From Candidatus Woesearchaeota archaeon CG10_big_fil_rev_8_21_14_0_10_44_13 (GTDB lineage: Archaea; Nanobdellota; Nanobdellia; Woesearchaeales; UBA12501): 64,000 nucleotides of DNA. The stretch's first letter is position 1. Every line of letters starts with the position of its first letter. Made by a program: the position numbers and the translations under genes. Below are positions 2,935-36,928 of the stretch, piece after piece. A model generated the notes under the pieces. It ran no database searches. It worked only from the letters and a program-made list of their open reading frames with translations, and was not told where the DNA came from. The stretch lies in the NCBI GenBank assembly GCA_002762985.1, contig PCXZ01000016.1, positions 1 to 64,000 on the forward strand, read 5' to 3'.

Positions 2935-5839
2935 CATAGGTAAAAAATACGCTATTAGGTGGATGACTTGGCTCTGGTGCCGAAGAAGGGTGTGACAAGC
3001 TGCACAAAGCTTTGGCGAGATGCACGTAATCTTTGAACCAAAGATCCCTTAATGAGACTTCTCGTAAAATCCGAAAGGATGGGGAACGCAGGGAATTGAA
3101 GCGTCTTAGTACCTGCAGGAAAAGAAATCAATCGAGATGCTGTGAGTAAAGGCGATCGAAAACAGCAAAAGGCAAACTGAATCCGTTGCAGTAATGTAAT
3201 GGAGATGTGGTGTGATGGACTGTTTTTTAGGCCTAACCGAAAGATTCGAAGTTTTCTGGAAAGAAACGCCGTAGAGAGTGATAGCCTCGTAGAAGAACGT
3301 CGGTGGCCGTAGCAGTATCCTGAGTACTGCTTATCGGATATTAAGCAGGAATTTGGGAGGCACTAACTTCCAACCTTAAATACAACCAGAGACCGATAGC
3401 AAACGAGTACAGCGATGGAAAGTTGAAAAGAACTCTTGACAGAGATTCAAAAGAGCCTGAAACCTAATAGTTATAGTGTGGCAGTGCTCTACGGAGTTCT
3501 GCCGCGCGTTTTGAATAACGTGCCGGGGAGTGTATTTGAGTGGCGAGGGTAATTCTGCAAAGATGCACCCAAAGCGAAAGCGATAGCTCGCAAGCAATGA
3601 GGAGCAAGGTATGAAAGTGCCTTGAGTCACTTGGATACGACCCGAAGCCAAGCGATCTAACCCTGGGTAAGGTGAAGCGCGGGTAAAACCGCGTGGAGGC
3701 CTGCAGAGGTTCTACGTGCAAGTGTTCTTCTAACCTGGGGCTAGGGGTGAAAAGCCAATCGAGCTTGGTGATAGCTGGTTCCTACCGAAGTTGGCCGCAG
3801 TCAAGTCTTGAATGAGACAGCCACGATTGTAGAGCTACGGATCAGGGGCTTAGGGAGGGAAACCTCTCGGCCCTTTGTCCAACTCCGAATGTTTTGGCGT
3901 CATAGACTTCAAGAAATGGGGATCCGGGGTAACCTTGGATTCCGAGAGGGGAACAACCCAGACTGCAGTTAAGGTCCCAAAATATCAACTAAGTGTGAAA
4001 GGGTGAAAAGTGTCTACAGCCTAAGACAGCGAGGAGGTTGGCTTAGAAGCAGCCATCCTTTAAAAAGTGCGTAACAGCTTACTTGTCAAGGTTGTAGGCC
4101 TTGAAAATGGACGGGGCTAAGTTGATTACCGATACTGTAGACATCCGAAAGGATTGTGGTAGGTAGGCGTTCTGCTAGGGCAGAAGCATTTCCGAGAGGA
4201 AGTGTGGACCTGGCAGAAATGAGAATCCCGGTCAAAGTAAGATCATAGCAGAGTGAGAATCTCTGCCACCGAAAGGGCAAGGGTTCCTTGACAATAAAGG
4301 TTAGTCAAGGGTTAGTTGGTCCTAACTGAACTCCTAACAGGAGGGATGGAAAGGGAAACAGGTTAATATTCCTGTACTGCTTTAGTATGTGCGGCAACGC
4401 AAGTTCAGTTTCCGACATTTTGGGCTAGATCAACATGAAACGTCTTTTATGTTAACCAAGATAAATCTGGGGAGTATCGTAATGATGAGATCCAGATTAA
4501 ACTTGGGAATAGTATTCCTTATGGAGTATTTGATTGATGCCTGGAGTCCATGAAAAGGGAACTGAAAAAAATCTTCAGCATCCATACCCAGAACCAGCAC
4601 AGGTGCCCCTAGGTGAGAAACCTAAGGTGTCAAGGCGATAATCCGATTAAGGGAACTCGGCAAATTGGCCCCGTGCCTTCGGTATAAGGGGTCCCTGCGT
4701 TTGTTAGCTAAGCTAGCGATTGCAGGGTGCAATGACTAAGATGGTCCGACTGTTTAACAAAAACACAACTTTCTGCTAGCCCGTAAGGGTGCGTACAGAA
4801 GGTGACGTCTGCCCAGTGCCAGTACTTCAAACTCCTTTTCAAGGGAGCTAAGAGCTGGTAAACGGCGGGAGTAACTATAACTCTCTTAAGGTAGCGTAAT
4901 ACCTTGCCGTTTGAATGACGGCTTGCATGAATGGCGTAACGAGATTGTCACTGTCCCTAATCGGAAGCCTCTGAAAACTTATTCTGGTGCAAAGGCCAGA
5001 GATATCCAGTGGGAAGCGAAGACCCCGTGAAACTTTACTGTAGCTTGTAGCTGTGATGTAGATCCTGATGTGCAGCGTAGATGGTAGTTGCTAAAGCTTA
5101 GCCGCTAGGTTAAGTGTAGACGACAATGAGACACCATCCTTTGGGATTTACATTGCTCACTTTAGAAATAAAGAACAACTATTGGCGGACAGTTTGGCTG
5201 GGGTGGCACGCCGCTAAAAAGATATCAGCGGCGCCCAATGGTTGGCTCAACCCGGTTGGAAATCGGGTGTTGAGTGCAAGAGCAAAAGCCAGCCTGATTG
5301 GATTGTCAAAACTAAGCAATCCAAAGACGAAAGTCTGGTCTAGCGAACCTTTACATCTCCTTAGTGGGGGGTAGAGATGACTGAAAAGTTACTCCGGGGA
5401 TAACAGAGTTGTCGCGCCCGAGAGCTCCTATCGACGGCGCGGCTTGCTACATCGATGTCGGCTCTTCCTATCCTGGTCGTGCAGAAGCGGCCAAGGGTGA
5501 GGGTGTTCACCTATTAAAAGGGATCGTGAGCTGGGTTCAGAACGCTGTGAGGCAGTTTGTTTGATATCTACTGGATATGTCGATGTCTGAGGGGAAGGAA
5601 CTTCTAGTACGAGAGGAACGAAGTCTCGAGGCCTCTGGTCTAACGGTTGTCCGACAGGGCAGGCCGTGCAGCTACGCCTTTTGGGATAAGTGCTGAAAGC
5701 ATCTAAGCACGAAGCCCTCCTCGAAAAGAGACATCATAGAACCGCCGCAGAAGACGGCGTTGATAGAACTGGTGTGTACGCACGAAGGCAACGACGTGTT
5801 CAGCACGCAGTTACTAATAGTTCATACCTTTACCTATGC
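2935..5839 (+). rRNA. 23S rRNA
   Basis: Conserved 23S landmarks are present throughout, including AACTATAACTCTCTTAAGGTAGCG (read in parts), the domain V core (GGGATAACAG, GTGAGCTGGGTTCAGA) and the sarcin-ricin loop AGTACGAGAGGAAC. The ends are set by a perfect 16-bp terminal stem: ACCATGCATAGGTAAA at 2929-2944 pairs with TTTACCTATGCATGGT at 5829-5844. About 2.9 kb is the usual archaeal size, and I saw no obvious intron. No 5S gene or tRNA-Cys follows. Confidence 0.95.
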
Positions 5840-5844
5840 ATGGT

Positions 5845-5980
5845 TAATCTTTTTTTTCTTAAACCATATATTATGCAATCACAAAAAACACTTGATAGCT
5901 TCAGCTATGGCATTTGTCATGCTGTTATGCGTTTTTAACGAGCGATAGCTTCAGCTATGCGATCATGATCTTGTTAGTTA
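5845..5980 (+). other. Spacer after 23S with duplicated hairpins
   Basis: This starts with a T-rich run that could terminate the rRNA transcript. Two copies of the palindrome GATAGCTTCAGCTATG occur at about 5893 and 5945. No gene is supported; the short ORFs called here overlap the 23S 3' end. Confidence 0.45.
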
Positions 5981-5981
5981 T

Positions 5982-6060
5982 TTCTGAACCCAGCTCACTT
6001 TTTTAGAACACCCTCACCCTTTAACCAGTCATCTCTACCTAACGCCAGAATGCAAGCCGG
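5982..6060 (+). ncRNA. Sequence antisense to several 23S core segments
   Basis: Read on the plus strand, 5982-5998 is the exact reverse complement of 23S positions 5526-5542 (17 nt). 6006-6021 matches 5493-5508 (16 nt) and 6026-6039 matches 5370-5383 (14 nt). About 6043-6060 matches the segment near 4922-4943 with small differences. The order is antiparallel and collinear, so all could pair with 23S at once, looping out the material between. It may be an rRNA-binding RNA or a decayed inverted rRNA fragment. Whether it is transcribed is unknown. Confidence 0.5.
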
Positions 6061-6063
6061 CAA

Positions 6064-6738
6064 CTAATTAGAATTGTGTTTTTTGGCAGGATCCGGCAGG
6101 AAAGCGCATACCCCGAAATAAAGGTCAGACATGGCAAGCCTGAGCATGCTGTTGTATTCAAACGAATCCATGCCTTTGCTGCGCTGCCTTTCCAATATCT
6201 TATATCTCTCTTCAGCGCGGCCTATAAGGCCCGTCAATTCCCCGAAACCATTATCTGCAAGCTGTTTTGTCGCATGCACAAGAAGGTGAAAATCCTCCTT
6301 TTCCTTATTCTCCCTCAGGTCCCTGATGGGGAACTGCATGACATGCTCTGCAAACCTTTTCCACGCAAAAGGCAGATAGTCTTTGCCAAGAGCAGATTCG
6401 TAATGTGTTTTTATGAAAGAATCGTCAGGGAAAAACCGGCCTGTGAGCAGGCATCCATCAAGATAAAGATCTTCTTTAGGGAGTTTTTCCAGATTGTAGG
6501 GTTTATCCTCCACGCTATCTCGCGGTCCGATAAGATGTGGCCTCAAGTCCTCACTGCCAGTTTTTGATTGCAGGAACTCGCTTATCTCACGGGAGAATTG
6601 AGGTGTGCATTGGAGAGTATTTCTCCCTCCTTTGGTAAAAAGCATGAAATCTATGTCTGTGGCAAATTCAGGGGCATAGACAGAACTACCAAGAATAGCT
6701 ATTTTGTTGCCTTCTGCGAAATATCCTTCCAATGCCAA
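6064..6738 (-). CDS. Nucleotidyltransferase-fold protein
   Basis: The first 35 residues hold GSS followed nine residues later by DIDFM, the GS...DxD signature of the polymerase-beta nucleotidyltransferase superfamily (MNT/KNTase type), with the two metal-binding aspartates intact. The remaining 190 residues look helical and charged and give no further hint. At 224 aa it is longer than minimal MNT antitoxins, and no HEPN partner lies beside it. The substrate is unknown. Confidence 0.6.
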   Translation of the reverse strand: MALEGYFAEGNKIAILGSSVYAPEFATDIDFMLFTKGGRNTLQCTPQFSREISEFLQSKTGSEDLRPHLIGPRDSVEDKPYNLEKLPKEDLYLDGCLLTGRFFPDDSFIKTHYESALGKDYLPFAWKRFAEHVMQFPIRDLRENKEKEDFHLLVHATKQLADNGFGELTGLIGRAEERYKILERQRSKGMDSFEYNSMLRLAMSDLYFGVCAFLPDPAKKHNSN

Positions 6739-25116: not shown

Positions 25117-25308
25117 GGGCCTGTAGCTCAGTGGTAGAGCGCTGCTCTCGCAGAGCGTGTTACGCGACCCTCGGACGCAAACGCAAGGTGGGCATAAAAA
25201 CTGCGTTTTTAGCCCACCGAAGGATTCATATAAAATCGTCCAAAAAGGTATCAGATGTAACATGCTCGAGTCCAGCAGAGGCCGCGAGTTCAATTCCCGC
25301 CAGGTCCA
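25117..25308 (+). tRNA. tRNA-Ala(CGC) with ~120-nt intron
   Basis: The acceptor GGGCCTG/CAGGTCC keeps the alanine G3:U70 pair. The D-arm is GCTCAGTGGTAGAGC. The anticodon stem CTGCT/AGCAG encloses CT-CGC-A, then a long intron (about 25153-25272), then position 38. The T-loop is TTCAATT and the discriminator is A. The intron is long for an archaeal tRNA and contains a perfect 14-bp hairpin. Confidence 0.85.
25185..25219. repeat. Palindrome inside the tRNA-Ala(CGC) intron
   Basis: GGTGGGC-(A)-TAAAAAC pairs with GTTTTTA-GCCCACC around a TGC tip. It accounts for a quarter of the intron and resembles the palindromes found in spacers, so it may be a later insertion into the intron. Confidence 0.65.
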
Positions 25309-36541: not shown

Positions 36542-36671
36542 GCGAGGGTAGCAAAGCCTGGTCAAATGCGCAGGACTCAGAAGTGCGAAACTTAAGACCG
36601 GCTTAAAGGTCTAAGCCACTAGGACATCCTGTCTCTTAGTGAGTTCGAGGGTTCGAATCCCTTCCCTCGCA
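36542..36671 (+). tRNA. tRNA-Leu(CAG) with 44-nt intron
   Basis: The acceptor is GCGAGGG/CCCTCGC with A73. Anticodon stem CAGGA/TCCTG encloses CT-CAG-A, a 44-nt intron (36582-36625), and A38. The variable arm TCTC-TTAG-TGAG is long as in class II tRNAs. The T-loop is TTCGAAT. Confidence 0.9.
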
Positions 36672-36829: not shown

Positions 36830-36928
36830 GCCTCCGTAGCATAGCGGTGGTGCACGTCCTTGGTATGATCGGAAGAAAAATCGATTGCAATGAGGACGAG
36901 GTCGTGGGTTCAAATCCCGCCGGAGGCT
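36830..36928 (+). tRNA. tRNA-Thr(GGT) with 27-nt intron
   Basis: The acceptor is GCCTCCG/CGGAGGC with U73, as in archaeal tRNA-Thr. Anticodon stem CGTCC/GGACG encloses TT-GGT-A, a 27-nt intron (36866-36892) and A38. D-arm and T-arm (GTGGG-TTCAAAT-CCCGC) are normal. Confidence 0.88.

Follow-up and report, generated by a model that had tools for sequence, protein, structure and literature searches.

Among eukaryotic snoRNAs, snR190 and U3 are non-modifying chaperones that are complementary to distant strands of pre-rRNA and are proposed to guide its folding. Yeast snR190, a box C/D RNA, is predicted to pair with sites in domains I and V and, like the element described here, is directed to the vicinity of the peptidyl-transferase center (PTC) (PMC8536713). 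In archaea, the two guides of a C/D box sRNA can join distant rRNA strands, and a chaperone effect has been suggested for this arrangement (PMC7994747). The Pfam family PF05635 (23S_rRNA_IVP) occurs in intervening sequences of bacterial 23S genes (PMC11270868, PMC4990558), is described as functionally uncharacterized (PMC11270868) and resembles Avd of diversity-generating retroelements (PMC10053308). In the bacterial intervening sequences, the 23S gene encloses the ORF (S23), and the element is excised; in the Coxiella paper (PMC4990558), the word antisense occurs 0 times. Searches of an open-access library listed no description of PTC antisense adjoining archaeal 23S genes.

Downstream of a woesearchaeal 23S gene lies an element that, like snR190 and U3, is complementary to distant rRNA strands, and its complementarity to at least two such strands is conserved, as in non-modifying rRNA chaperone RNAs. 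Whereas snR190 is a box C/D RNA, this element is encoded beside the 23S gene, carries up to four to six collinear blocks and has no C/D boxes, and its protein neighbor differs from that of snR190. Unlike the archaeal C/D sRNAs, it has no C or D boxes placed around its blocks, and nothing points to a modification. It shares with the bacterial intervening sequences both the PF05635 family and the physical tie to 23S genes; however, the woesearchaeal ORF follows the 23S gene, has its own promoter-like box and stands beside PTC antisense, and is thus not an insertion of the bacterial type. The reverse transcriptase and the template/variable repeat of Avd systems were not noticed in an unsystematic reading of the flanks.

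The window, by which we mean the whole stretch of 64,000 nt that was analyzed, contains an rRNA operon with an archaeal 16S rRNA gene (883–2464), a tRNA gene (2630–2703; both Rfam matches) and an archaeal LSU (23S) rRNA gene on the plus strand (2935–5838; RF02540, 2645.8 bits). When both flanks were co-folded, a 17-bp processing stem of the 23S was predicted from plus-strand positions 2928–2944 and 5829–5845. Directly after the stem is a T8 tract (5850–5857, plus strand), which from its sequence is a possible, perhaps partial, terminator of the rRNA transcript, and two copies of a small hairpin, GATAGCTTCAGCTAT, were recognized by sequence and co-folding at 5894–5908 and 5944–5958 on the same strand. 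Past the antisense blocks, a T6 tract (6079–6084, plus strand) may mark the 3′ end of the element. On the minus strand, a convergent ORF of 224 aa (6064–6738) stops beside the last block, in the position where most carriers among the relatives have a PF05635 gene; its 3′ untranslated RNA would hold sense PTC segments if extended leftward. Elsewhere in the window, Rfam matches to tRNA, 99 to 192 nt long, are present at 25117–25308, 36542–36671, and 36830–36928, where ARAGORN reported none; these long matches suggest tRNA genes with introns.

Four antisense blocks are present on the plus strand of the 23S trailer. Block 1 (5982–5998) is an exact complement of 17 nt to 23S 5526–5542 with a modeled duplex energy of −31.5 kcal/mol, block 2 (6006–6021) one of 16 nt to 5493–5508 (−30.2 kcal/mol), and block 3 (6026–6039) one of 14 nt to 5370–5383 (−23.7 kcal/mol). 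Block 4 (6042–6059) comprises 10 exact nucleotides (6050–6059, against 23S 4919–4928) and an imperfect extension that widens the target to 4919–4937 in domain IV (−28.8 kcal/mol). The plus-strand target of block 1 falls within 5526–5566, the stretch most covered among relatives, and we take it to be the 3′ strand of H90, the PTC ring, and the 5′ strand of H93. By the same helix naming, the target of block 2 is presumably the 3′ strand of H91 with the 5′ half of H92/A-loop, and that of block 3 the strand before the 3′ side of H74. The initial annotation of this DNA had reported exact reverse complements of 17, 16, and 14 nt and an imperfect fourth, which we recovered with coordinates within a base or two. 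It had also claimed that the order of the blocks permits simultaneous pairing; the four blocks are indeed antiparallel-collinear with their 23S targets, an order in which all of them could pair at once.

Between 5839 and 64000, blocks 1 to 3 are the only antisense matches to the 23S of at least 14 nt. When domain IV was included in the target, the collinear chain scored 39.5, compared with a maximum of 27.5 over 1000 dinucleotide shuffles. As a target for the window's trailer, its own 23S outscores all 101 other 23S sequences; at L023 and L117, 10 and 11 of the 101 foreign 23S sequences outscore the own one. In the predicted folds, the unpaired fraction was 0.46 in the antisense blocks and 0.46 elsewhere.

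Relatives were collected by means of a 14-mer of the 23S sarcin–ricin loop, the exact motif being present in 179 of the 352 genomes of the order. The 164 loci fetched are a subset of those with this 14-mer, and together with L199, L206, and L208 from PF05635 searches they make up 167 distinct 23S 3′ loci. Trailers were scored for collinear antisense to their own 23S, or to that of the window where the own 23S was cut off. In a first set of 128 trailers, 18 had scores reached by at most one of 300 shuffles, against 0.85 expected. A score of at least 15 was attained by antisense in 17 of these 128, compared with 0.29 for shuffles, 0 for sense, 1 for reversed, and 0 for reversed-sense targets; 400 to 730 nt downstream, it was attained in 2 of 128, both of which (L094 and L119) are displaced elements. 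A new hold-out set of 36 loci yielded 3 further carriers against 0.24 expected. Overall, significant discontinuous collinear PTC antisense was found in any of four search windows at 26 of the 167 loci, and in the first 330 nt alone at 22 (P ≤ 0.004; 0.7 expected), leaving 141 loci with no detectable element.

Roughly one relative in seven among those examined is a carrier, and the carriers come from at least 12 families, with pairwise 23S identity between strong carriers as low as 75%. The locus of one carrier is identical to that of Candidatus Woesearchaeota NC_groundwater_261. At L108, at least six blocks run collinearly from the sarcin–ricin side to offset −156, and L107 has four; the subsets of target strands differ between carriers. 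Mapped on the 23S tree, presence of the element requires 17 changes, compared with 18.6 for shuffled labels, and this patchiness implies that it was often lost or gained, or often missed. Of 30 trailers that belong to the other orders in the class, 0 had significant PTC antisense, and in the spacer upstream of the 23S, the best antisense scores were 4.5 to 10 at the 9 scorable loci of 11. One of the 26 loci, L147, has its match inside the PF05635 coding region, probably by chance. L128 also has a PF05635 gene, 865 nt from the 23S, but the two weak blocks immediately ahead of it did not reach significance.

When the 88-nt element was compared by BLAST with 10 genomes of the family, it matched only itself and 23S genes; that result alone would have suggested a private remnant, an idea we rejected, and the apt comparison is of each trailer with its own 23S. 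The block 1 pattern together with a non-23S base matched in 4 of the 352 genomes of the order, all four in 23S trailers. The sole match to a fixed two-block pattern, L015, lies by eye at the start of a protein gene with no other antisense around it and was dismissed as chance. Across the whole collection, an 18-base pattern matched 16 times: L161 is the same locus as that of genome G287, L163 is an ordinary 23S variant, L167 is a chance match, and the 13 others are bacterial by title. As a side observation, the 23S genes of four genomes (G013, G038, G006, and G010; L032, L030, L029, and L035–L038) gave matches of 3.3 to 3.6 kb or in pieces, which suggests that some of the order's 23S genes contain insertions.

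The blocks of the carriers concentrate on the PTC ring/H90–H93 and H91–A-loop strands and largely skip H89. For 91 trailers, target segments of 245 nt were moved along the final 1.5 kb of the 23S. The two segments that cover the PTC were hit by 13 and 14 trailers, compared with 2 and 0 for reversed controls; the two at the far end were hit by 8 and 9, compared with 8 and 3, and most others by 0 to 4. Coverage summed over 25 carriers peaks at 5526–5566 and around 5490–5515 and is nil over 5420–5453, which we take to lie inside H89. The longest exact antisense block across the 167 loci measures 20 nt, indicating that the elements are not recent inverted copies, and the remainder of the trailer is poorly alignable between carriers. 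Blocks were located with the consensus 23S of the order, a procedure that disfavors species-specific matches. The own 23S departs from the consensus at nine sites within blocks, and there the trailer agrees with the own 23S in six cases and with the consensus in three. A count of transitions made to look for G:U asymmetry gave 13 compatible and 6 incompatible ones, uncorrected for the C-richness of the blocks. The initial annotation had proposed looking for complementary blocks kept in relatives with compensating changes; such blocks are kept in the 26 carrier loci, and at six of the nine sites the trailers track variants of the own 23S. The PF05635 gene that is linked to the element in relatives had escaped that annotation.

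In most carriers, the neighboring gene encodes a protein of 130 to 147 aa which, translated from the trailers, belongs to PF05635. The proteins of two relatives scored 127.8 and 101.2 bits against a curated cut-off of 33.8; among proteins of known structure, 2gsc and 2rld are relatives of the neighbor in sequence, and a weak bAvd match (E = 8e-4) stayed below the cut-off. The gene is present at 23 of the 26 antisense loci compared with 20 of the 141 others (Fisher p = 1.5e-13, phylogeny ignored). Removing the three loci that came from PF05635 searches left 22 of 25 compared with 18 of 139, and dropping L147 kept the linkage at p = 1e-12. In the hold-out (n = 36), the gene accompanied 4 of 4 antisense loci and 5 of 32 others (p = 0.002, phylogeny ignored). 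Across the order, 25 of 120 genomes have PF05635, and 15 of 26 genes above the cut-off lie within 1.5 kb of the 23S sarcin–ricin loop; PF05635 genes (L199–L225 and others) cluster directly after the 23S, including at loci with no detectable antisense. In most carriers the antisense is located upstream of the gene, but in L094, L119, and L246 it immediately follows the gene or what remains of it. In 0 of 30 loci from other orders of the class was a PF05635 gene found. Distances between PF05635 proteins correlate with those between the 23S sequences (Mantel r = 0.52, reached in 0 of 2000 permutations), so inheritance of the gene looks mostly vertical.

The antisense can occur without the gene. 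No PF05635 gene was found in the genome of the window, L108 and L075 have antisense and no such gene, and L079 retains a short piece from the start of the gene, with the next gene, presumably Kae1/Gcp-like, following directly and the antisense intact. The arrangement at L079 is likely a deletion that spared the antisense.

Runs of at least four T precede the antisense in 23 loci, and no fixed or dedicated promoter was found between the T-tract and the antisense. Because a T-tract follows the 23S with no fixed promoter beyond it, the antisense may be transcribed on read-through only. A TAG...CTA motif upstream of the block is also present in 8 aligned relatives. In aligned carriers, a TAGC...GCTA-like hairpin lies between the T-tract and the antisense and may be a terminator or processing signal; comparable motifs occur in the trailers of noncarriers. 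The PF05635 gene, for its part, has a TATA-like box whose position in 17 antisense-linked genes peaks at −28 to −30 from the ATG, with 10 of the 17 at −29, a position that makes its mRNA probably leaderless and leaves out the upstream antisense.

We propose that the PTC-antisense RNA beside the 23S is a folding chaperone or assembly checkpoint of the 50S subunit, usually acting with the PF05635 protein, a reading derived from sequence to which we give a probability of about 45%. The plus-strand RNA would pair at once with the strands that we take to be H90/H93, H91/A-loop, and the strand before H74, and in the window also with domain IV, while the self-contained hairpin H89 would be looped out and left to fold alone. 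The PTC strands would thereby be held open or together until the precursor is processed and late factors arrive, whereupon the antisense RNA would be displaced. In most carriers, the neighboring PF05635 four-helix-bundle protein would bind the RNA or act together with it, and in the species of the window the RNA would do without. Several observations weigh against this reading: the T-tract between the 23S and the blocks with no fixed promoter after it, which is the chief doubt, the blocks being no more unpaired than other sequence in predicted folds, the patchy distribution, and the 141 of 167 loci with no detectable element. The fuller version, in which Woesearchaeota possess a two-part assembly device made of a multi-block PTC RNA that loops out H89 and a PF05635 partner protein, is more doubtful.

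The same complementarity could instead serve inhibition, the RNA blocking the PTC of the precursor or the mature 50S with or without the PF05635 protein, whether as a brake, as a hibernation device, or as a mark of read-through precursors. Pairing of the strands to which the blocks are complementary should abolish catalysis, and the location of the blocks beyond the T-tract is compatible with an RNA made on read-through or under special conditions only; however, a folded PTC would be hard to reach for duplexes of 14 to 20 nt, and we regard inhibition as unlikely. A two-part toxin device is further argued against by the retention of the antisense without the protein in the species of the window. 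The initial annotation had set a folding chaperone or assembly brake against a decayed rRNA remnant. The remnant has become unlikely because 26 of 167 loci of the order keep complementary blocks and the trailers follow variants of their own 23S at six of nine sites, whereas chaperone and brake are not separated by sequence. A decayed inverted rRNA copy would explain the complementarity as such and the 141 loci with no element, yet no exact inverted block exceeds 20 nt at any of the 167 loci, the same PTC strands are targeted in at least 12 families whose trailers otherwise align poorly, and neither the collinear order with H89 skipped nor the PF05635 linkage would be expected of decay, which makes such an origin very improbable.

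Two further explanations start from the protein gene. The antisense might be a captured piece of 23S, or a targeting aid, of a PF05635-based selfish or mobile unit that settles beside 23S genes. The presence of the gene at 23 of 26 antisense loci, the proximity of 15 of 26 above-cutoff genes to the sarcin–ricin loop, antisense on either side of the gene, the patchy distribution, and the occurrence of the family in bacterial 23S intervening sequences (PMC11270868, PMC4990558) all fit such a unit. We nevertheless consider it rather unlikely, since the Mantel correlation points to mostly vertical inheritance, the antisense persists where the gene is absent (the window, L108, and L075) or reduced (L079), and passive capture would not be expected to yield short collinear blocks tracking the 23S of the host. 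That the element regulates the adjoining PF05635 gene, sensing free 23S or precursor by pairing, would suit L246 and L094, where the antisense starts just past the stop codon or gene remnant and could be a 3′ untranslated region. In the common order, however, the TATA-like box of the gene itself implies a leaderless mRNA that excludes the antisense, and the genome of the window has antisense and no such gene, so that regulation of this kind is quite improbable. Least probable of all is a guide RNA for 2′-O-methylation (C/D) or pseudouridylation (H/ACA), which we hardly credit. Contiguous blocks of 14 to 20 nt would not be expected to fit an H/ACA pocket; ACA trinucleotides occur in the sequence, and no H/ACA match to Rfam was obtained. 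Archaea are known to carry modifications around the A-loop and PTC (PMC7994747); however, a C box within 12 nt 5′ of a block was found in 0 of 67 cases and CTGA within 10 nt 3′ in 3 of 67, which is about chance, and the window's trailer has no RTGATGA. Rfam yielded no sRNA match beyond an opposite-strand one to AgvB at 14 bits (E = 3.5).

A PTC-complementary RNA beside the 23S would be a candidate found from genome sequence alone, and its link to PF05635 gives that family a testable role. Should the two-part assembly device exist, its RNA would be the first in archaea to fold rRNA without modifying it, its protein would give the PF05635 family a first function, and the location of PF05635 at 23S genes in bacteria and archaea alike would be explained. 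The element would likewise offer a natural design for probing how the catalytic center folds.
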